Assembly (NCBI RefSeq): GCF_041361465.1
Contig: NZ_JBGKAC010000001.1
Location: forward strand, 744,001-808,000
Length of the DNA stretch: 64,000 nt
Direction: 5' to 3'
From: Halobaculum sp. MBLA0143
Lineage (GTDB): Archaea > Halobacteriota > Halobacteria > Halobacteriales > Haloferacaceae
In this document: positions 2,507 through 20,562 of the stretch, in pieces
Layout of the letters: every line of letters begins with the position of its first letter
Numbering within the stretch: position 1 is the first letter of the stretch
Notes under the pieces: generated by a model
The model's input: only the letters and a program-made list of their open reading frames with translations
The model's database searches: none
Told to the model about the DNA's origin: nothing
Program-made: the position numbers and the translations under genes

Positions 2507-3634
2507 ATGCAGGAGTCCAACGACAGCGGTGTCAGTCGACGCGACGTGCTCGAACAGACCGGCGCGGCAGCGACCGCGCTCGCGGGCGTCGGGACCGTCC
2601 CAGCCGTCGCTGCGATAGGAGAACGGGAGACGACGATCACCACCCTCGCACAACGGGACGAAGCGCGCGGCACCGAGCGGGTGAGCAAGCGGTGGCTCCA
2701 ACAGACGAAGCGCGCGACCCGGGTGAAAGAACAGCTGATGAACGCCCACGAGGACAACGATGGTGTCCGGAGTATCGGGATCGTGTCGGCCGACCGGACC
2801 ATCGGTGATCTCCGTGCGGAGGCTGTGAGTGTGGAGGTAACAGACCCGGTTCACGCGCAGTCGATTCCGAGTTCGGTGGACGGGGTGCCTGTCGTTACCA
2901 ATATGGCCGGCCGGTCAGAACAGACCGGCGACGACTGTGCGAGTGACGACTACTGTCGAATCAACCCAGAGAGTATCTATGGTGGGCTGAGTGTGACGAC
3001 GATACATCAAGCGGGGACAATCGGATGCCGAGTGGTGTACAATGGAGCGTACCACATGCTATCTGCGAGACATACTTTTATTGACAAAAACAAAGATGGC
3101 TACTGTGAAGATAGTATCGATGTCTCAACCTGGCAACGCAATGGCACGACACTCGGATCAGCCGCAGCGGACTTCCGAAAACACGACGCAGCCCTCCTCC
3201 GGCTGAACGACGGAAACGAAGATACAGGCTACTCTAACGAGATGGTCAACGAGTCCGGCAAAGTTGTTGGTCGGGTGACTGAGAGCGGACTGAAGTACCT
3301 CAACGGTAACGACAGCGAAACTGTTCATAAACGGGCCCGGACTAGTGGTGCGCAGTCAGGGCAAGTCAAAGCAATTCAACTCACTAATCGCGACTGCCTA
3401 AGTGACCTCCCACTCATTGAGGGAGTCGTTCGATCCTCCACAGCACAACAGGACAAAGACTCCGGGAGTGTAGTGTACTACAGAGAGCCGCAGTCGTCAT
3501 CGACAGATCACCTGTACGTAGTCCACCTTGCAACGATAAGACGGTCTGACACCGGTTGGGCGGCCGGTTCGTCAGCGAACGATATGTACAACGATCAAGG
3601 TATCTGGTTCGGGGGTGAGCCGTATAGTGGATAA
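2507..3634 (+). CDS. Tat-secreted trypsin-like serine protease
   Basis: A 375-residue exported protein. Residues 1-36 form a twin-arginine signal (SRRDVL followed by an Ala/Gly/Val-rich stretch). Residues about 45-140 look like a propeptide region. The C-terminal part has the chymotrypsin-fold triad in the usual order: SARHTF (His189), HDAALLRL (Asp227) and DKDSGSVV (Ser319). Cysteines at 144, 150, 174, 200 and 297 could form disulfides outside the cell. The frame is open further upstream, but the ATG at 2507 begins the Tat signal and fits the promoter. The stop overlaps the start of the next gene by one base (TAATG), implying translational coupling to a membrane protein. The gene is AT-richer than its surroundings. 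The protease fold is inferred from motifs; the substrate is unknown. Confidence 0.75.
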   Translation: MQESNDSGVSRRDVLEQTGAAATALAGVGTVPAVAAIGERETTITTLAQRDEARGTERVSKRWLQQTKRATRVKEQLMNAHEDNDGVRSIGIVSADRTIGDLRAEAVSVEVTDPVHAQSIPSSVDGVPVVTNMAGRSEQTGDDCASDDYCRINPESIYGGLSVTTIHQAGTIGCRVVYNGAYHMLSARHTFIDKNKDGYCEDSIDVSTWQRNGTTLGSAAADFRKHDAALLRLNDGNEDTGYSNEMVNESGKVVGRVTESGLKYLNGNDSETVHKRARTSGAQSGQVKAIQLTNRDCLSDLPLIEGVVRSSTAQQDKDSGSVVYYREPQSSSTDHLYVVHLATIRRSDTGWAAGSSANDMYNDQGIWFGGEPYSG

Positions 3635-4458
3635 TGTCTGATAATTTGAACACACCAGACTGGCGGGCCGTCCCAGGCTTTGTTGTCTCTGCTATTATAA
3701 TCTTAATAGTCTTTATTGGCGCATACAATTCAATCAGTGGAGAAAACAGTGCGGTTGACTATCTACTTGGTGTGTACAGTATGGGAGACCAGTTCTGGAC
3801 ACTGTTCATGATGTCAGTTATGAGTATACTCACTACTTACTCAGTAAAAATTGAACGTCAAATCCCGCGCTACGCATTAGCCACTGCTGGTGGGATACTC
3901 GTCGTCACAGAGCTACGATTCGATATTAACGCATTTACAAAGATTATCATTTTTTTACTTTCAATATTTCTTTTATCATTACTGCTATTTGAAATCTACG
4001 AAAGCAAGAGAGATGAGACGAGCACAGACGTGGTTGAACTGACACCCCAGCGTTTGTTCGAGCTAGTAGCTCTTGTTTCTTGCATACTTCTTTCTGTAGG
4101 TGTAGTTACATCAGCTTTGTCAGTGCTGTTTGGGGCAAGTCCACTCCTCGGTGACCTGGCGGGATCTCGGATTGGAATCGTGTATTTTGTCGGTCCTGAG
4201 GAGGTCCACGATGAGGCGCGGAGTGTGTTCCGTGCTGTAATAGTTTCACTTGTGTTTGTTACTGTCGTTGCTGATGCAGTCCGAAACCGTGAGTTACAGT
4301 GGCTCTCAGTCGTGGCGCTCGTCGTCAGCATCGGTGGAACGAGCTTCTTCTGGTATTACACTTTCTGGACCGCGGCAGTCGCAGCAGCGGGCGCACTGCT
4401 CACCGTAATCGTCGTCGCGCTCGCGCTCGACGAGCGATCGGAAACCCATTCAGAGTGA
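3634..4458 (+). CDS. Eight-helix membrane protein, array copy 1
   Basis: A 274-residue integral membrane protein of no family I recognise. Hydrophobic segments lie near residues 13-31, 54-71, 79-95, 102-121, 144-167, 198-216, 222-241 and 245-265. Features shared with the three paralogues downstream are ELR[FY] at the end of helix 3, a loop with [YF]-x-x-G-x-[ED] followed by EA/ET before helix 6, and a C-terminal FFWYYTFWTA-x-VA-x-x-GALLTVIV block ending in a short acidic tail. It starts inside the stop codon of the protease gene, so the two products are probably made together. AT-rich, unlike the flanking housekeeping genes. Possible roles (inferred only) are inhibitor or immunity partner, sensor or anchor for the secreted protease. 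Confidence 0.85.
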   Translation: MSDNLNTPDWRAVPGFVVSAIIILIVFIGAYNSISGENSAVDYLLGVYSMGDQFWTLFMMSVMSILTTYSVKIERQIPRYALATAGGILVVTELRFDINAFTKIIIFLLSIFLLSLLLFEIYESKRDETSTDVVELTPQRLFELVALVSCILLSVGVVTSALSVLFGASPLLGDLAGSRIGIVYFVGPEEVHDEARSVFRAVIVSLVFVTVVADAVRNRELQWLSVVALVVSIGGTSFFWYYTFWTAAVAAAGALLTVIVVALALDERSETHSE

Positions 4459-4528
4459 CTCTTCCCCGCCTGATTATAAATACACAATTAGAACTAAGTT
4501 ATCCGGTATAACTATATCAGTAAGAACG

Positions 4529-4652
4529 TTACTACTCCCGCACAACAGGACGGAGCGCACCACTCGCTAGCGAGAAGGGCCAGCAGGACCCAATCGGAAT
4601 CATGTACAACGAACACGGCATCTGGTACGGAGGCGAACCATTCAGTGGATGA
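4529..4652 (+). pseudogene. Protease relic before array copy 2
   Basis: Remnant of a second protease gene. The last 17 codons survive in frame and read MYNEHGIWYGGEPFSG then TGA, matching MYNDQGIWFGGEPYSG at the end of the intact protease. The TGA at 4650-4652 overlaps the next ATG (4649-4651), reproducing the coupled junction of copy 1. Bases 4529-4560 resemble the segment coding for TTLAQRDEARG near the protease N-terminus. Everything between has been deleted, including the catalytic domain. Confidence 0.8.
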
Positions 4653-5476
4653 CGGGCGGCTCCCGTTGGTGGTCAGACCGACGAGCTGTCCCCGGCTTAG
4701 CCGTCGCTGTACTCATCGTGATGTTTGCTCTGCTCTCTCTGTTCTCTTTCCCCTCTTTCGGGAGAATGCCTGTGACTTACTTATTAGGCAACCCTTCAAG
4801 AAGCAATGCTTTCTGGATGATACTATTCTTACTGCTATTTGGAATATTTATTTCTTACTCACTAAGTGCTAGACGAAGATTCACCCGGTACACGCTGGCT
4901 GCCACAGGGACTGTTCTCACAGCCGCAGAACTTCGATACTTCGACGACGCGAGTGTCCAGATACTCGCTGTTCTAGTTTCTCTCTACCTCGTCTCTGTGC
5001 TCTCTTTCGAGGTCTTCGACGGCGAGGTGAGCCCAAGCGAGGAGCCCCTCGGACTTCCGCCGAGTAGTTTGTTCGAAGCTCTAGCAATTGTCGCTTGTGT
5101 CCTTCTCTTCGCGGGAGTCGCAGGGTCACTCCTGTCCGTGTTGTTGCTCGGAGAGAGCCCACTGCTCGGAAAGTTGGCGGGATCACCAGTCGCTGTCGTG
5201 TACCTCACTGGCTCTGACGCAGCCGCCTACGAAGCCCGAGTGCCGGTCCAGGCTGCTACTGTAGCGGTAATGTTCGTCGCCGTCGTCGCCGACGCGGTCA
5301 GACACTGCGAAGTGCGGTGGCTAACAGCTATTACTCTCGCCGTCGACATCGCTGGGATGATGTTCTTTTGGTACTATACATTTTGGACCGCGACCGTCGC
5401 AGCAGTGGGCGCACTGCTCACCGTGATCGTGCTTGCGCTCGTGCTCGACGAACGAACCGAGGCGACTCTGGACTGA
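4649..5476 (+). CDS. Eight-helix membrane protein, array copy 2
   Basis: A 275-residue paralogue of copy 1 with the same helix pattern and motifs: RRAVPG before helix 1, AELRY at helix 3, LLGKLAGSPVAVVYLTG in the loop after helix 5, and MMFFWYYTFWTATVA at the end. The ATG overlaps the stop of the protease relic just upstream. Helices 1-3 retain AT-rich codons, while the second half is closer to host composition, suggesting partial amelioration. No function is known. The intact frame beside a dead protease gene argues that the membrane protein is what selection keeps. Confidence 0.85.
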   Translation: MTGGSRWWSDRRAVPGLAVAVLIVMFALLSLFSFPSFGRMPVTYLLGNPSRSNAFWMILFLLLFGIFISYSLSARRRFTRYTLAATGTVLTAAELRYFDDASVQILAVLVSLYLVSVLSFEVFDGEVSPSEEPLGLPPSSLFEALAIVACVLLFAGVAGSLLSVLLLGESPLLGKLAGSPVAVVYLTGSDAAAYEARVPVQAATVAVMFVAVVADAVRHCEVRWLTAITLAVDIAGMMFFWYYTFWTATVAAVGALLTVIVLALVLDERTEATLD

Positions 5477-5523
5477 GTTTACTCTGTGCGGTTGCTAATG
5501 TGCAACAAATCTAAGTTGGCCGG

Positions 5524-5588
5524 CACAGACAGGTCTGCACAACCCGGGTGAAAACCAGGTGATGGACGCTCACGGGAACAGTGAGGGT
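5524..5588 (+). pseudogene. Protease relic before array copy 3
   Basis: About 65 bases resembling the protease segment at 2698-2771 that codes for TRVKEQLMNAHEDNDGV: both carry ACCCGGGTGAAA, then CAG-TGATG-ACGC-CACG in the same order. The copy is frameshifted and stops early. It abuts and slightly overlaps the start of copy 3. Here the surviving part is N-terminal, unlike the relics before copies 2 and 4. Confidence 0.65.
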
Positions 5589-6414
5589 GAATAACAACCT
5601 CGGCTGGAGATCACTTCCTGCAATCCTTGTAGCAACGGTTCCGATCTACTACTCCGTCTACACGTTGTCAAAACCCGTGAGAACAGTCACAAAGTTCTGG
5701 TATTTTTTTGAACCTGAGTCCCTGCCGGAGCATTTCTGGTCTCCTCTATTTCTACTCTTTTCAGGAGTTGCAGTTATATTCACTCAACAGGTCAGACATA
5801 GTCTCTCTCGACGCACGTTGGCCGTATCTGGTAGTGTAATTATTTCCGCTGAACTGCGGTATGCTCTTAGTGCAAGCGAACAAGCAACGTTTTTCACTTT
5901 ATTTGCCTTATTTATACCACTGTTTTTATCTACGGTTCTATACGAAGTCTCCAACAGTAGAGGTGTAGATACCGGTGGAGATCGACTTCACTTTCGTGGC
6001 AACACGACGCTTGGCCGAGTTGCGGTAGCTGCGTGTGTGCTCCTCGTCGGTGTGACTGTGTGCATTGCCATTTTAGTGCTCATAATTGAAACGCCCACAC
6101 TTTCGCCAGGGACAAGCGCATCTACCCCAGGGATTGCGTTTCTCGTTGGTGGACAGGAGGCGCAGGCTGAAACACGGATACAGTTCTGGGCCGTTGCTGT
6201 AGCCGTAGTATTCGTTGTCGTCGTCATTGACGCCACGCGATACCGCGAGATTCGGTGGCTCACGGTACTCGCACTCGTCGTCAACACGGGTGCCGTGACC
6301 TTCCTCTGGTACCCGAGCCTCTGGACCGCGACAGTCGCCACGGTCGGCGCGTTACTCACCGTGATCGTCGTCGCGCTCGTACTCGACGGGCGATCCGAAA
6401 CTACTCTGGATTGA
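5581..6414 (+). CDS. Eight-helix membrane protein, array copy 3
   Basis: A 277-residue paralogue of copies 1 and 2, with GWRSLPA before helix 1, AELRYAL at helix 3, GIAFLVGGQEAQAETR before helix 6 and a C-terminal WTATVATVGALLTVIVVALV block. The FFWYYTFW motif of copies 1 and 2 is changed to FLWYPSLW. The GTG at 5581 aligns best with the other copies; a second GTG at 5587 is also possible. It follows a short N-terminal relic of the protease gene. Helices 2-4 are markedly AT-rich. Function unknown. Confidence 0.83.
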   Translation: MRVNNNLGWRSLPAILVATVPIYYSVYTLSKPVRTVTKFWYFFEPESLPEHFWSPLFLLFSGVAVIFTQQVRHSLSRRTLAVSGSVIISAELRYALSASEQATFFTLFALFIPLFLSTVLYEVSNSRGVDTGGDRLHFRGNTTLGRVAVAACVLLVGVTVCIAILVLIIETPTLSPGTSASTPGIAFLVGGQEAQAETRIQFWAVAVAVVFVVVVIDATRYREIRWLTVLALVVNTGAVTFLWYPSLWTATVATVGALLTVIVVALVLDGRSETTLD

Positions 6415-6487
6415 GTTCCACACCACCTGGATATAAGTACGTAGCCAAGATCAATCACGCTCTACACAGCTAGACCACGGGGGCGGC

Positions 6488-6617
6488 TCCACTCTCGCAA
6501 CGCGAGACGAACTCCGGCACTCGTCGGCGGGGACGGCCAGCAGGACGCAATCGGCACCTCCGGAACAACACGTACGAAGATCAGGTGATCTCGTTTGATC
6601 AAAAGCAGTACAGCGGC
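6488..6617 (+). pseudogene. Protease relic before array copy 4
   Basis: Two fragments of the protease gene. Bases 6488-6520 can be read as STLATRDELRH, resembling TTLAQRDEARG. Bases 6564-6617 read NNTYEDQVISFDQKQYSG, which aligns without gaps to the protease ending NDMYNDQGIWFGGEPYSG with nine identities. The frames are no longer continuous and the stop has moved downstream (TAG at 6630-6632). The fragment junction GGCCAGCAGGAC-CAATCGG is shared with the relic before copy 2. Confidence 0.65.
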
Positions 6618-6624
6618 CGACAAG

Positions 6625-7455
6625 GTGGCTAGTGTCCGAAAGTACAGTCGACTACCGGCCATCGTCGTCGGCGGGGGTCTGATCGCTATCGCTCTCGTGA
6701 GCTGGTTTACACCCCTCAGATACCTCGGAGCGGGCACGTTCGCAACTGTCGAGTACCTTCTCGGAGTCAATGAGGCGGAGCCGTACTACTACCAATCGCT
6801 GGGGTACTTCCTGACCGGTGCCTCTGTGTGCTACGCTAGCTATCGAACTCGGACACTCCTACTCGGTGTACTGTCGGGAACAGGTGTCGTCTTCCTGCTC
6901 GGTGAACTACGATTCGGGGTTCAGTTGCTCTCCCTCGCAGGGCTCGGTGCTGTTCTAACGGGGACGGTGGGGCTGTTAGCACTCCTGTCTCGTTCCGACG
7001 GGCACAGTTCATCTCTCCCGAGCAGACTGGCTCGGCTCATCGATACTGATGTCCGTGAACCTGAACGCCTCGCCGGCTATTCGGCGTGTGTGGTGGTGTG
7101 CGTGGTCCTCGGTGCGTATACTGCCGTCGGAGACCCGTTCGCAGGTACAGCAGAGCCAGTACCGGCATTCCTCTATCTCACCGGCAAAGAGAGTGTCTAC
7201 GCTGAAGCCCAGGGCTCGTTTCGGACGGCAATCGCTCTCGGGTCGTTCGCGGCCTTCGTGGCGGACACGACGCGGCAGGGCGCAACTCGGTGGCTGGCGC
7301 TAACGGCAGTTGTGCTCAACCTCTCTGCTATCAGTGTCCTGTGGTTCTGGAACGCTCGGGGTCTCGCAGCTGCAATCGTCGGGGTGCTCGTCACCGTCGC
7401 CGCGGTCGGCGCAGCAACTAGAGGAGAGACGGAGCGCGAAGCTGCATCCCCCTGA
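6625..7455 (+). CDS. Eight-helix membrane protein, array copy 4
   Basis: The most divergent paralogue, 276 residues from the GTG at 6625; a TTG at 6595 would add ten residues that belong to the relic reading. Family marks are RLPAIVVGG before helix 1, GELRFGV at helix 3, PAFLYLTGKESVYAEAQGSFRT before helix 6 and a final pair of helices, but the FFWYYTFW motif is replaced by VLWFWNARG. Base composition is close to that of the host, so this may be the oldest copy. Function unknown. Confidence 0.82.
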   Translation: MASVRKYSRLPAIVVGGGLIAIALVSWFTPLRYLGAGTFATVEYLLGVNEAEPYYYQSLGYFLTGASVCYASYRTRTLLLGVLSGTGVVFLLGELRFGVQLLSLAGLGAVLTGTVGLLALLSRSDGHSSSLPSRLARLIDTDVREPERLAGYSACVVVCVVLGAYTAVGDPFAGTAEPVPAFLYLTGKESVYAEAQGSFRTAIALGSFAAFVADTTRQGATRWLALTAVVLNLSAISVLWFWNARGLAAAIVGVLVTVAAVGAATRGETEREAASP

Positions 7456-11847: not shown

Positions 11848-12861
11848 CTACGCCAGTTCGACCTCGCCGGCGGCCCGGTCCAAGACGAGCACGAGCGCCG
11901 CTCCGACGACGGCTCCGCCGACGAAGACGGCGGCGACCTCCGGGCTCCAGGCCCGCCCAGCCTCTCGTAGCGCGTCCGTCGTCCCGGCGATCGGTGCCCG
12001 CAGCGCCCCGACGACGAGCCCGATCAGGAACGTCATCGTCGTCGTCTCGTCTCGGGCCAGCGCCCGCCTGACGACGTTCGCGACGGTGAACAGCCCGACG
12101 AACGCGCCGGCGACGAACACGACGACGGTCGTCCCCGGGGCGACGAGCGCCGCCGGATCCCCACCCTGGAGCACGGACAGGGCCGTCGCCCGGAACGTCT
12201 TCAGCGCGCCCGACAGCCGTTCGTACTGTCCGAGGATCACGAGAATCAGGCTCCCGGAGATTCCCGGCAGCAGCATCGCGCTCACGGCGAGTGTCCCCGC
12301 GAGCGCCGTCGCCGGCAGCGACGTACCGAGCGTCGCCCGGGCGCTGCCGGAGACGAGCGCCGCGACCGCGGCCCCGCCGACGAACGCGGCGACGTGACGC
12401 CGCCGCGCGAACGACACCGCGCTCCGCAACACCACGACGCTGGCCGCGATCAGCCCGAAGAAGCCGCCGAACGTGAGCGCCGGCGCCGTCGTCAGCGCCG
12501 TGTTCAACGACGGTACGACGATCAACACCGCCGTCACGACACCCAATCCCAGGGTGACGAGGAACGGCAGGTCGGCCTCCCGGAGCGTCTCGGCGAGGGC
12601 TCGCGGATCGCGCAGCTCTCCCAACAGCTCCCGTGCCAGTCCCGGGTCGACGGCGGAGACGGCGGCGACGAGCCGGTCGTAGATCCCCGTGATGAGGGCG
12701 ATCGTCCCGCCGGAGACGCCCGGCACGCCGTCTGCCGCTCCCATCGCGAGCCCGCGGAGGTACGTCCCCGGGAGCGACTCCGAGCGGTCGGCGACCGTCT
12801 CTTCGGCCGTCGCGCCCTCCGTCCGCACGCTCCCCGCCGCTTCGCCGCTGTCACCCGACAT
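11848..12861 (-). CDS. DUF368 polyprenyl-phosphate translocase-like protein
   Basis: A 337-residue polytopic membrane protein of the DUF368 family. The signature GAADGVPGVSGGTIALITGIY lies at about 40-60, and the repeat MLLPGISGSLILVILGQY at about 215-235; about nine helices are visible. Bacterial members (PopT) return undecaprenyl phosphate across the membrane. In archaea the likely substrate is dolichyl phosphate released on the outside by protein N-glycosylation. Its ATG shares a base with the aglB stop (TGATG); a GTG three bases upstream would give a four-base overlap. The coupling supports a role in lipid-carrier recycling, which is an inference. Confidence 0.85.
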   Translation of the reverse strand: MSGDSGEAAGSVRTEGATAEETVADRSESLPGTYLRGLAMGAADGVPGVSGGTIALITGIYDRLVAAVSAVDPGLARELLGELRDPRALAETLREADLPFLVTLGLGVVTAVLIVVPSLNTALTTAPALTFGGFFGLIAASVVVLRSAVSFARRRHVAAFVGGAAVAALVSGSARATLGTSLPATALAGTLAVSAMLLPGISGSLILVILGQYERLSGALKTFRATALSVLQGGDPAALVAPGTTVVVFVAGAFVGLFTVANVVRRALARDETTTMTFLIGLVVGALRAPIAGTTDALREAGRAWSPEVAAVFVGGAVVGAALVLVLDRAAGEVELA

Positions 12862-15800
12862 CACGGTGTGGCGGCAGTCTGTTCGCGGACGGCGGCTGCC
12901 GTCTCGGGCGCAACCACCGCGACAGTCTCGACCGCCGTCGGTGCGTCTCCGGCCGTCGTCGGACCGACGCGTCCGCCAGTCTCGTCGACGGTCACCTCGG
13001 TGCCGACGCTCCCGTTGGCAGTCGTCTCGTTACCGTTCGTCCCGTTGGCAGTCGTCTCGTTACTGCTCGTCCCATTACGAGCGCCTTCCGGCCGTTGGAG
13101 CACGGTCTCGGACAGCGTGACGGACACCTCGCCGTCGCCGGCGCCGTTCACGTCGGCCTCGGAGACGTTCACCCGCGCCTGGTTGCGGAGGACGTACGTG
13201 GACTCGTTGGTCCGCACGTCGCCGGCGATCTGGTAGGGACCGGTCGCGCGGACGCTGACGTTCGTGTAGCCGTTCTCGGGGCCGAACTCCGCGTAGCCGG
13301 TCGTGGAGTACGGCAGCGTGAACGAGAACTGGCCGTCGGCGTCGGCGGTCGTCTGCTGGCGGTAGACGAACGTCGAGGCGTTCCCGCGGGACGCCTCCGG
13401 GATACGCATCTGGACGCTGGCGGTCAGCGTCTCGTTGGGCGCCGCGCCGGTGCCGGTGACAGTCGCCCCGGGCACCCGCTCGAACGTCTTCACCCACGAC
13501 GGCGTGGTCTTGAACAGCCGCGAGGGGGACAGCCCGAGCGCCCGTGCCTCTCTGATTGCCCCGGTCTGGTAGCTCCGGGCGGAGAAGGCGGTCGTCTCGG
13601 AGGTGTCGACGAGACGGTAGTGTTCGAGCGCCGGCACCGGCTCGCGTGGGTACGCGCCGAAGCCGCCGATCTGTGCGGAGCCGTCGCGTTCCACGAACCG
13701 CTCGGCGGCGGTCACGTTGGGGAACGTCCGCAGCGCCGAGCTGTTCTCCGTGTTCCGGAGGAGCTTGATGTCGAACCCAGTCGACTGAATCTCCTCGTAG
13801 TCCATCACCAGGACCCGGTCACCGAACGGCGTCCGGACGACCGGCTCCGCCCGGCTCCCGTGGTAGGCGTACAGCCGAGTCACCTGGCTCTCGTAGAAGC
13901 GTTGCTTCTTCTCGAAGAAGGCACGTCTGGCACCCTGGTCCTGCCCGGAACTGACGTACACCGGGAACGTCTGGGTGACGCCGCTCTCGTTCGTCTGGCG
14001 GTAGAGGATGTCGTCTCGAGACAGGTTCCCCCGGTCGTAGAACAGGATCGGAGCGCCGAACTTCGCAGTGTTGCCCGCCCGCGTGATCGACGACATCTTG
14101 TAGTCGACCATCACGTACCGGGTCTGGTCGCCCTCCTCGCCGCGTTCCAGCAGCGCCGACTCGGCGGCCGACTCGTTGGGCGCGAGCAGGAAGTTCGCAG
14201 CCGCGGTGGCGCCCTGCTGGAACGGGTTGGCGTTCGGAATCCGCTCGCCACGGGTCGTGATCCAGTGACCGTAGTCCCACCACGACTGGACGCCGTAGGC
14301 GCCGTCGGAGTAGTCGAAGTCGGCGTCTCCCGGCCGTTCGTACTGGCCGTACAGCGCCATCTCCTCGCCGTCACCGCCGAAGGTGCCCTCCTCCGGAGTG
14401 TTGTCGGACAGCCAGTTCAGGCTCTCTTCCCACACGAGCGAGCCGGTCTTCGGTCTCGTCTCGCTGCTCTGGACGGCGTTCGGCGTCCGGACGTTCTGCG
14501 GGCCCAGCGTGAGCGGCACTGTCAACACCGGGACGAGAACGACCATGACGACGAGCGCGGCCGTGAGGACCTGGTACGTCTCTACGTCCGGCGCCTCCAC
14601 CCCGCTGTCCAAGTCGATGTCCACGAGCCCGAGAGCGAACCGGACGAAGTAGGCGTTGAACGCCGCCACTGCCACCGCGAGGTAGTAGTTGAACCGCACC
14701 TGCGTGAACGCCGCCATCGTCAGGAAGGCCGCCCAGACGAACAGGAACAACACCTCGGCGTCGTAGCGGATCCGGGCGGCGGCCGCGAACACGACTCCCG
14801 CGAGCACCAACACGCCCACGACCTGCGGCTGGAGGCCGAACAGTCCGACGATCCCGCCGAACACGTCCGGCACGCCGGGGACGTTGCCGGCGAACACGAA
14901 GGCGACGACGGCCGCGGCGACGCCGAGGAACTGGCGGTCGCCGTCGTCGTTCCGGCGGTACAACGGGAGCGCGAGCGCCACGACGGCACCGATCACGGCC
15001 GTCAGGAGGGCGAACCCGTACTGTGACAGCACGGCGTATGCTTCGCCTACCTGCTGGGCAGACCCGGAGTTGAGCCACGGTTGTGCCTCGCCGATGGTCC
15101 GGGTGGCGGCGTTGGCGTTGAAGCCGACGAACCGGAGGAGGTTCTGTTGGAGCAGCCCGAACGGAGTCACGTCGACGAACGCGACGAGCCCGACGGCGAC
15201 GGCGGAGGCACCGGCGACGACCGCCTGGAACCCGTTGTCGTCCACCCAGTCGTTGTCGAACGTCTTCGCCTCGAAGTACCGGGCCAGCCCGGCGAGCCCG
15301 ACGGCCGAGACGGCGACTGACAGCGCGAACGCCGGGTGGAGGAGGCCGAGCTTCGTCGGAGTGAACGTCGGGCCGTCGAACTTCACCAGCGCGACGAGTG
15401 CCGTGACGACCATCGACACGACGGCGACGAACGCGACGTGGTCCGGGGAGCGACGGCCGTAGTCCGACAGTACCTGGAGCACGAGGTACACCGCGAAGAT
15501 ACCGAGCAGGAGGATACCCGGAGGCCACGCCCAGAGGTACAGCCCCATGGCGACGCCGGCGATGGCGCTCCAGACGGCCGAACGACGGAGGCTGTCCCAG
15601 TCGCCGGCGGTGACGAGTTCCCAGATGGGGCGGTCCTCTTGCGCGACGGACAGGGCGACGACGATCCCGACGACCGCGAACGCCTGGAACAACGGCTCGA
15701 CACCGTTGTGGTCGGCGAACCCGACGAGCGTCCGACGGAGGAACGTCCCGGGCAGCAGGAGGAGGACGACGGCGCCGAACAGCCCCGCGACACGACCGGC

Positions 15801-16262
15801 GAGCCGCTTTCCGATCAGGTACGTGGGGATCGCAGTCAGAGCCCCCGCGACCGCCGGGGCGACGAGCAGGGTCTTGGCGACTAACTCCGCGGAGGGATCA
15901 CCGAGTCCGACGATCAGCGCGACCGTCGCCACGATCTGGTCGTACAGCGTGCCGAACTGGCCGACGTTGGTCCCCTTGGGGAAGTTCGTCCAGGGGTCGA
16001 AGGGCATGGTGAACGGCCAGTGCTCGACGACGTACTGGGTCGACCGGAGGTGGTACCAGGCGTCGTTGCCCGAGAAGTACACTTCGCCGTCACGGACGAA
16101 CCTGGAGTACGACCGGAGGCGTATCCACAACATCGTGGCGACGACGACCAGGAGCGCCGGGACCTCGAATCGGTCCCTGACGGCACCCAGGAGCGAGGCA
16201 ACACCGCCTGCGCCGACAGAGTCGGCCGGGGACTCCTCCTCACTCTCACTACCGTGACTCAT
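12861..16262 (-). CDS. aglB: Oligosaccharyltransferase AglB
   Basis: Membrane enzyme of 1133 residues that moves a dolichol-linked glycan to Asn in N-x-S/T sequons on the outer face. The N-terminal membrane half (to about 560) contains the first-loop acidic motif GNDAWYHLR (Asp67). The soluble half carries the catalytic WWDYG at 661-665, continuing GHWITTRGERIPNANPF. The C-terminus has a beta-rich region and a Thr/Asn-rich tail with several N-x-T sites. The frame stays open another 420 codons upstream through repeats, but the ATG at 16262 fits homologues and a TATA-like box 28 bases away. It overlaps the DUF368 gene. Targets nearby could include the pilin at 25514, which has several sequons. 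Confidence 0.95.
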   Translation of the reverse strand: MSHGSESEEESPADSVGAGGVASLLGAVRDRFEVPALLVVVATMLWIRLRSYSRFVRDGEVYFSGNDAWYHLRSTQYVVEHWPFTMPFDPWTNFPKGTNVGQFGTLYDQIVATVALIVGLGDPSAELVAKTLLVAPAVAGALTAIPTYLIGKRLAGRVAGLFGAVVLLLLPGTFLRRTLVGFADHNGVEPLFQAFAVVGIVVALSVAQEDRPIWELVTAGDWDSLRRSAVWSAIAGVAMGLYLWAWPPGILLLGIFAVYLVLQVLSDYGRRSPDHVAFVAVVSMVVTALVALVKFDGPTFTPTKLGLLHPAFALSVAVSAVGLAGLARYFEAKTFDNDWVDDNGFQAVVAGASAVAVGLVAFVDVTPFGLLQQNLLRFVGFNANAATRTIGEAQPWLNSGSAQQVGEAYAVLSQYGFALLTAVIGAVVALALPLYRRNDDGDRQFLGVAAAVVAFVFAGNVPGVPDVFGGIVGLFGLQPQVVGVLVLAGVVFAAAARIRYDAEVLFLFVWAAFLTMAAFTQVRFNYYLAVAVAAFNAYFVRFALGLVDIDLDSGVEAPDVETYQVLTAALVVMVVLVPVLTVPLTLGPQNVRTPNAVQSSETRPKTGSLVWEESLNWLSDNTPEEGTFGGDGEEMALYGQYERPGDADFDYSDGAYGVQSWWDYGHWITTRGERIPNANPFQQGATAAANFLLAPNESAAESALLERGEEGDQTRYVMVDYKMSSITRAGNTAKFGAPILFYDRGNLSRDDILYRQTNESGVTQTFPVYVSSGQDQGARRAFFEKKQRFYESQVTRLYAYHGSRAEPVVRTPFGDRVLVMDYEEIQSTGFDIKLLRNTENSSALRTFPNVTAAERFVERDGSAQIGGFGAYPREPVPALEHYRLVDTSETTAFSARSYQTGAIREARALGLSPSRLFKTTPSWVKTFERVPGATVTGTGAAPNETLTASVQMRIPEASRGNASTFVYRQQTTADADGQFSFTLPYSTTGYAEFGPENGYTNVSVRATGPYQIAGDVRTNESTYVLRNQARVNVSEADVNGAGDGEVSVTLSETVLQRPEGARNGTSSNETTANGTNGNETTANGSVGTEVTVDETGGRVGPTTAGDAPTAVETVAVVAPETAAAVREQTAATP

Positions 16263-16283: not shown

Positions 16284-16297
16284 CGGCAATAAGCCTT
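16284..16297 (-). promoter_or_regulatory. TATA-like box of aglB
   Basis: On the minus strand AAGGCTTATTGCCG is centred about 28 bases before the ATG at 16262, consistent with a leaderless transcript. The repeat tract lies upstream of it. Confidence 0.5.
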
Positions 16298-16525: not shown

Positions 16526-16905
16526 GGTGGAGCGATGTGGAGTGGAGCAGAGACGGAGACAAAGTGGAGACGAACGGGAAGCAGAGCGGAGACGCAGGGG
16601 AGCAGAGATGGGAGCGGAGGCGAAGCGATGCGGAGAAGAGCAGAGGTGGAGGCAGAGACAGAGCGGAGACGCAGGGGAGCAGAGATGGGGGCGGAGGCGA
16701 AGCGATGCAGAAAAGAGCAGAGGTGGAGGCAGAGACAGAGCGATGCAGAAAAGAGCAGAGGTGGAGGCAGAGACAGAGCGATGCAGAAAAGAGCAGAGGT
16801 GGAGGTGGAGGCGGAGGCGAAGCGGTGCGGAGACGGAGCAATGTGGAGGAGAGCAGAAGCGGAGCGGGGGCGGAGGGGAGACGGAGTGGTGCGGAGGCGG
16901 AGCGG
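16526..16905. repeat. Purine-rich tandem repeats, 38- and 77-base periods
   Basis: The plus strand is almost all A and G. The unit GATGCAGAAAAGAGCAGAGG, extended to 38 bases, recurs at 16704, 16742 and 16780. A 77-base unit starting GCGGAGACGCAGGGGAGCAG recurs at 16586 and 16663, and degenerate copies continue on both sides. All six frames are open or nearly so, but the predicted peptides are low-complexity (Arg/Glu/Gly or Leu/Ser/Pro) and no start or domain is seen, so I treat it as noncoding. It lies between the aglB promoter and the terminator of the deacylase gene; the flanking bases 16298-16525 and 16906-16964 hold no gene. Confidence 0.8.
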
Positions 16906-19489: not shown

Positions 19490-19915
19490 GTGATCCGACC
19501 CGGGCGGCCGGCGGACGAGTCGGCACTGTCGTGCCTCCAGGGTTACCTCCGCGAACCGTCGCCGAAGCTGTTGTGTCACGGGCTCGCGACCGGAGACGTG
19601 TTCGTCTCTGTCGCCGAGGAGACGGTGGCCGGCTACGTGCTGCCGGTCGGGCGGGGTGACGGCGACCAGCACGTCGCGGAGTTGGTCGTCGCTCCCGCGC
19701 ACCGGCGCGAGGGGCGCGCGCGTCGGCTGTTGGAGCGAGTCCTGGCGACCAGCGAGCGGGTGACGCTGCTGGTCCACCCGGGCAACGACCCGGCACGGTC
19801 GCTGTACGAGTCACTCGGGTTCGAGTACGTCGCCCGCCGACCGGGGTTCTACGACGACGCGGACGCGTTGTTGGCGGCCCGGGAGCCGACGGATCAGGCG
19901 GTGTCACCGCGGTAG
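19490..19915 (+). CDS. GNAT-family acetyltransferase
   Basis: A 141-residue single-domain N-acetyltransferase resembling RimI. The motif A acetyl-CoA loop is seen in AELVVAPAHRREGRARRLLE (about 65-85), and motif B in NDPARSLYESLGFEYV (about 102-118). The GTG at 19490 begins the fold exactly (VIRPGRPADES). It follows DUF92 closely and its last 22 bases overlap the convergent VTT-domain gene. Acceptor substrate unknown. Confidence 0.85.
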   Translation: MIRPGRPADESALSCLQGYLREPSPKLLCHGLATGDVFVSVAEETVAGYVLPVGRGDGDQHVAELVVAPAHRREGRARRLLERVLATSERVTLLVHPGNDPARSLYESLGFEYVARRPGFYDDADALLAAREPTDQAVSPR

Positions 19916-20562
19916 TGGCGGTACGCCGGGGCGGCCGCCAGGAGGAGGCCGGCGACCGCCGCGGCGGCGACGAGCCGCGGGTCGAACGCGGCCGCGACGC
20001 CGGAGACGGCGAGTCGGTGGAGCGAGGCACCGGCGACGACCGCCCCGACGGCCCACGGCAGTTCACCCACGGCCGTTCCGGCGAGGTACGGCCAGAACGG
20101 GACGCCGGCGACGCCCGCCGCACCGGAGATCACGTCGGAGGGGAGCGGCGCGAGCCGAGCGACGACGGTCGACCGGAACGGGCCGGCGACGGACAACGCC
20201 CGGTCGCCGGCGGCGTCGACGCGGGCGACGGCCGTCGAGATCCGCCCGTCGCCGGCCAGTAACTCCGCACGCCCGCTCGCACCCAGGAGGTACGGCGGGA
20301 GACTCGTCAGCGTGAGGAGCCCGACGGCGGGAACGACCCCGGGGAGTCCGAGCCCGTAGCCGGCGACTGCAGACAGCAGTGTCGTCGGCCAGGCGAGGAA
20401 CGGTCGCACGACCGCCAGGAGTGTCAGTGCGACTACGAGCGCCGCCGGATCGTCCGCCAGTGCGTCGAGCCGGCTCAGCGCCGTCCCCGGGGCGACCGCC
20501 ACGGCTGCGACGGCGACGGCTCCGACGACGACCCCGAAGGCCAGGAGACGACGGCGCGACAC
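19894..20562 (-). CDS. VTT-domain (DedA/TVP38-like) membrane protein
   Basis: A 222-residue membrane protein with about six helices. The VTT signature is seen in two places: LLSAVAGYGLGLPGVVPAVG (about 65-85) and ARLAPLPSDVISGAAGVAGV with PFWPYLAGTAVGELPW (about 140-178), the Arg and Pro residues lying in re-entrant loops. Some DedA-family members carry undecaprenyl phosphate or phospholipids across membranes. It stands 42 bases downstream of the next minus-strand gene and overlaps the end of the acetyltransferase gene. Confidence 0.85.
   Translation of the reverse strand: MSRRRLLAFGVVVGAVAVAAVAVAPGTALSRLDALADDPAALVVALTLLAVVRPFLAWPTTLLSAVAGYGLGLPGVVPAVGLLTLTSLPPYLLGASGRAELLAGDGRISTAVARVDAAGDRALSVAGPFRSTVVARLAPLPSDVISGAAGVAGVPFWPYLAGTAVGELPWAVGAVVAGASLHRLAVSGVAAAFDPRLVAAAAVAGLLLAAAPAYRHYRGDTA

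Follow-up and report, generated by a model that had tools for sequence, protein, structure and literature searches.

A DUF368/PopT-type transporter gene linked to aglB in haloarchaea: a probable recycler of dolichyl phosphate in N-glycosylation

The window analyzed here, i.e., the whole stretch of 64,000 nucleotides from Halobaculum sp. MBLA0143, harbors on its minus strand the gene for the oligosaccharyltransferase AglB, which runs directly into a gene for a protein of the DUF368 family. The features of the locus are as follows.

12861..16262, minus strand: aglB, archaeal oligosaccharyltransferase, 1133 aa; start ATG at 16262, stop TGA at 12863-12861
11848..12861, minus strand: DUF368 / PopT-type polyprenyl-phosphate transporter (PF04018), 337 aa from ATG at 12861 or 338 aa from GTG at 12864
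12861..12864, minus strand: stop/start overlap GTGA-TG, 1 base with the ATG start and 4 bases with the GTG start
16288..16293, minus strand: candidate TATA-like element CTTATT, recognized by eye, 26-31 bases upstream of the aglB ATG

Around position 12861, the minus strand reads ...ACACCGTGATGTCGGGTGAC..., with GTGATG as the junction. The final base of the aglB stop codon TGA is the first base of the DUF368 ATG (12861), and an in-frame GTG at 12864, three bases before this ATG, offers an alternative four-base GTGA overlap. Both arrangements had been described in the initial annotation, and re-reading of the sequence confirmed them exactly, including their coordinates; both types, of one and of four bases, recur at the aglB/DUF368 junctions of other genera. 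The genome contains a single PF04018 gene. The CTTATT element, judged by eye, is compatible with a possible leaderless aglB-DUF368 transcript, while the promoter and terminator scan employed a bacterial sigma-70 model, which is uninformative on archaeal promoters. Purine-rich imperfect tandem repeats with units of 77 and 38 bases occupy positions 16566-16905 of the window, some 300 bases upstream from the aglB start codon.

The 1133-aa protein matches the Pfam families STT3 (PF02516, 9.7e-26), AglB_core (PF22627, 1.3e-18), and AglB_L1 (PF18079, 8.2e-16) and contains the WWDYG motif as QSWWDYGHW, so that the STT3 membrane part, the core, and the motif by which AglB membership is judged are all present. 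The 337-aa protein scores 196 bits against PF04018 (cut-off 26; 9.4e-58) and covers profile positions 1-230 of 246; this family, earlier named DUF368, is now described in Pfam as "undecaprenyl phosphate translocase-like." Each half of the protein carries one of two PG-V/I-SG motifs, whose residues P47, G48, S50, and G51 as well as P199, G200, S202, and G203 are invariant in 40 archaeal sequences. An AlphaFold2 model (mean pLDDT 89.4, pTM 0.84) is all-helical, and its helices are broken at both motifs (H30-44/H51-57 and H182-197/H203-209). A two-fold inverted repeat with two re-entrant loops has been described for models of PopT (PMC10216114). No solved structural relative was found by profile search, and a Foldseek search with the model returned nothing meaningful (best E 0.5). 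The top VIA-align match, a ZIP transporter with Z 8.2, lies within the range expected of helical bundles and was discarded. Taken together, the sequence features and the confidently predicted model would fit the role of a polyprenyl-phosphate transporter.

The adjacency survey proposed in the initial annotation was performed with 79 genomes of the class Halobacteria, representing 42 genera and nine families, from which the loci were fetched and both genes called. A profile search detected PF04018 in 78/79 genomes, and Pfam detected STT3 in 77/79; in the remaining two, AglB was found near DUF368 with the protein from the window as query. DUF368 directly follows aglB on the same strand in 53 of the 79 genomes, belonging to 27/42 genera and 8/9 families, and is separated from it by one or two genes in three more. 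The latter include locus L084 with an AglM-like UDP-glucose dehydrogenase between the two genes and locus L085, assigned to the genus Haloferax through its sister genome G076, where such an AglM-like dehydrogenase and an AglF-like nucleotidyltransferase intervene. Among the 53 direct pairs, 17 overlap, 3 abut, 17 are separated by 2-6 bases, and 16 by 27-152 bases, i.e., the spacing is at most 6 bases (overlaps included) in 37 of them. As judged by family code, direct or near linkage is found in 27/30 genomes of f1, 10/10 of f2, and all 8 of f6-f9, and in a minority of f3 and f4. The same pair occurs in a second collection, namely in Haloferax mucosum, Halolamina salifodinae, Halorubrum coriense, Halorhabdus amylolytica, Halostagnicola, Haladaptatus salinisoli, Haloglomus irregulare, and Natrinema ejinorense. 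By our own estimate for about 3000 genes, same-strand direct adjacency would arise by chance in about 1 in 6000 genomes, compared with the 53/79 observed, and the pairing is thus far beyond chance. Note that the genome counts are not independent because of kinship; what carries the argument is retention, replacement, and the second lineage treated below.

A view on the flanks of the 53 linked loci shows two glycosyltransferase-like clusters on the aglB side in 15/27 and 13/27 genera, respectively, and a Wzx-like protein in 11/27, all named by eye, while beyond DUF368 no neighbor was found in more than nine genera and the genes mostly lie on the opposite strand. All other neighbors turn over far more than the aglB-DUF368 pair, which is a stable unit. 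Since nothing widespread lies beyond DUF368 and the shared neighbors are all on the aglB side, DUF368 closes the agl cluster. Two other genes located 2-4 kb from aglB in the window may be concerned with isoprenoid phosphates, coding for a DUF92 membrane protein (PF01940; 18002-19468, plus strand), whose family includes the plant phytyl-phosphate kinase VTE6, and for a VTT/DedA-family protein (19894-20562, minus strand); neither is prominent as a conserved aglB neighbor in the other genera of the 53 linked loci. The window also contains four consecutive genes for membrane proteins of 274-286 aa (3634-7455, plus strand), which are seemingly tandem paralogues; the three that were tested gave no Pfam match.

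The history of the linkage was followed with a DUF368 tree of 102 rows and a quick tree of AglB. Linked DUF368 genes are found at the base of the tree and in every haloarchaeal family that has the gene, which indicates that the linkage is likely ancestral, with a single origin within the Halobacteria. Twenty-two of the 26 unlinked rows form one derived clade (100/98). Because AglB tracks the families, with linked and unlinked genomes intermixed, while the unlinked DUF368 genes form a derived clade, it is DUF368 that has been replaced, and not the pair; a joint loss of both genes as a cassette was rejected on the same grounds. Three genomes (G005, G025, and G044) carry a linked copy together with a derived unlinked one. 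Family f4 displays the loss in place: five of its genomes (G005, G020, G043, G057, and G071) have a gene with a weak CHAT-domain match behind DUF368 and facing it, and in four others (G004, G032, G034, and G062) this gene faces aglB directly, DUF368 being gone in place; all four of these hold an unlinked DUF368 copy. In genome G029, DUF368 still lies beside the weak-CHAT gene, and aglB is found elsewhere. The weak-CHAT gene itself, coding for a 700-aa protein (L124:2400-4496 and relatives in f4), is a recurrent convergent neighbor of either aglB or DUF368. Where the linked copy is missing, an unlinked DUF368 is present in every genome but one, G021 (120 contigs, 98% complete), which contains AglB and gave no DUF368 match, as the sole such case among the 79. 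The function of DUF368 thus seems hard to lose in haloarchaea.

A second association occurs in the Thermoplasmata, where PF04018 was detected in 9 of 59 genomes; seven of these nine also contain STT3, and in six of the seven both genes belong to one run (PRPP synthase-STT3-AMMECR1-pyrC-DUF368-phosphatase; L236-L240 and L191), in which the names of the genes between STT3 and DUF368 were assigned by eye in the first locus. The DUF368 proteins of the Thermoplasmata and those of the haloarchaea fall into different clades, with unlinked methanogen genes closer to the former, so that the association with STT3 arose at least two times. With two housekeeping genes intervening, the linkage could belong to a general gene run, and it is weaker evidence than the haloarchaeal overlap.

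The view beyond these groups restricts the idea. No adjacency to STT3 was seen in the 21 non-haloarchaeal DUF368 genomes of the phylum survey, and DUF368 of methanogens is surrounded by unrelated metabolic genes. Three genomes of family f27 have DUF368 about 12-14 kb from STT3, in two cases beside uracil genes, which was judged incidental. Of 20 checked genomes of the phylum that lack DUF368, 17 contain STT3, as do the model archaea M. jannaschii, S. acidocaldarius, and M. acetivorans, which were used as controls. With so many AglB-bearing archaea devoid of DUF368, the initial designation of the protein as "the missing archaeal dolichyl-phosphate recycling flippase" is too broad, and DedA/VTT proteins or something else must serve in those species. 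DedA/VTT proteins were detected in 17 of 18 genomes checked, and haloarchaea hold 1-5 VTT proteins, a redundancy that may mask the effect of a DUF368 deletion. Genome G100 (family f13, genus g62) contains STT3 and gave no match to either DUF368 or VTT/DedA, which implies a further route of carrier return there, or none.

Genetic evidence from V. cholerae and S. aureus establishes a part for DUF368 proteins in the recycling of undecaprenyl phosphate, as the initial annotation had presumed (PMC9876793). In the same study, a V. cholerae mutant in the DUF368 gene VCA0040 was complemented, at least in part, by HVO_RS12060 of Haloferax volcanii. The aglB gene of H. volcanii is HVO_RS12050 (PMC5131992, PMC7749143), with aglF, aglI, and aglG at tags 12035-12045; as judged from the tag numbers, the complementing gene lies two tags from aglB within the agl cluster, which fits the arrangement in L085. 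This match of locus tags would join the published complementation to the aglB linkage. Sit et al. (PMC9876793) raised in general terms that the family may transport polyprenyl phosphates more widely, among them dolichol phosphate, and Roney and Rudner 2022 (doi 10.1038/s41586-022-05587-z), as described in PMC10216114, used synteny and chose the name polyprenyl-phosphate transporter. The DUF368 gene is therefore a member of an already named family and the idea is partly known; that synteny work may already report the linkage to aglB. What this study adds is how widespread the linkage is by count, how old it is, and how it has been replaced, together with the cases of DUF368 lost in place, the gene run of the Thermoplasmata, and the correspondence in locus tags with the complementing gene.

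The archaeal N-glycans characterized by 2015 were mostly assembled on dolichyl monophosphate, according to PMC4476749, and transfer by AglB would thus leave dolichyl phosphate outside. Among the archaeal N-glycosylation papers examined, none names a protein for its return after transfer.

We regard it as probable that the DUF368 protein is a PopT-type transporter working together with AglB, which returns the released dolichyl phosphate to the inside. On the outer side of the membrane, AglB would hand the glycan over from dolichyl phosphate to protein, leaving the carrier facing outward, and the DUF368 protein would bring it to the inner face, where cytoplasmic glycosyltransferases could reload it; co-translation from the overlapping frames may keep carrier release and return in step. 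In this view, dolichyl phosphate is the presumed substrate, outside to inside the presumed direction, and AglB the presumed source of the need. For the wider claim that haloarchaea and, separately, a lineage of Thermoplasmata have coupled PopT genetically to the oligosaccharyltransferase as a dedicated carrier-return module of N-glycosylation, we see the chances as evenly balanced; if it holds, archaea would have gained their first assigned transporter for the recycling of dolichyl phosphate. The initial reading of the overlap as pointing to a recycler holds insofar as the linkage is ancient and kept across haloarchaea, HVO_RS12060 complements the bacterial mutant, and the Thermoplasmata show a run of their own, but an overlap alone is no proof of function.

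A protein that brings dolichyl phosphate back from all its outward uses, i.e., from AglB as the main source and also from dolichyl-phosphate-mannose via AglS-type enzymes, from exopolysaccharide, and from other glycans, would agree with the retention of DUF368, even when unlinked, in all genomes but one, and with the uses of dolichyl phosphate outside AglB described for AglD/AglR/AglS (PMC3871713) and AepG (PMC9943897). We consider this unlikely, as aglB, and none of the other users of dolichyl phosphate, is the linked partner, and the adjacency goes back to the ancestor and is tight time and again; this reading overlaps with the preferred one and departs from it in specificity alone. Less probable still is a role in flipping the charged carrier, glycan-dolichyl phosphate, outward or in moving another lipid, a reading left room by a predicted fold that has no solved relative from which to argue. 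The outward flippase roles are already assigned to AglR and Agl15 (PMC3871713) and to Agl29 (PMC11980604), a Wzx-like gene occurs in the same clusters, and the bacterial members act on the bare phosphate, with the Haloferax member complementing such a mutant (PMC9876793).

The turnover of neighbors on both flanks while the pair stayed, the recurrence of overlaps and short gaps, the fact that DUF368 was deleted in place in genomes that hold another copy, and the linkage of the same two families in the Thermoplasmata all argue against a pair that persisted by chance without a functional tie, with DUF368 contributing to tolerance of salt or pH by other means. The single origin in the Halobacteria, whose genomes are not independent counts, and the high-salt role suggested by Sit et al. 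(PMC9876793) speak for such a historical relic, which we nevertheless hold to be very improbable.

A conserved overlapping neighbor of aglB with a known bacterial job renders the question of carrier return testable by genetics, and carrier return would help to explain why nearly all halophiles, which rely on N-glycans for their surface layer, have retained DUF368.

The locus resembles the published agl clusters of Hfx. volcanii, Hbt. salinarum, and Hrr. lacusprofundi, in which aglB is likewise accompanied by glycosyltransferase and Wzx-like genes on one side. The Hbt. salinarum cluster VNG1048G-VNG1068G ends at aglB (VNG1068G; PMC4335974) and that of Hrr. lacusprofundi, Hlac_1062-1075, at aglB (Hlac_1062; PMC10384203), with no DUF368 named beyond either. 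As DUF368 closes the agl cluster and the published clusters stop at aglB, the gene may have been missed by the boundary drawn. The UptA/DedA transporters of undecaprenyl phosphate (VTT, PF09335) have the same proposed job in bacteria, but belong to another Pfam family and show no linkage to aglB across haloarchaea. The closest likeness is to the PopT/DUF368 proteins VCA0040 of Vibrio cholerae, SAOUHSC_00846 of Staphylococcus aureus, and HVO_RS12060, with which the protein shares the Pfam family, the twin PG-x-SG motifs, and the predicted all-helical fold with broken helices. Compared with the bacterial members, the haloarchaeal proteins form a separate clade with aglB as genetic partner, and their carrier would be dolichyl rather than undecaprenyl phosphate.
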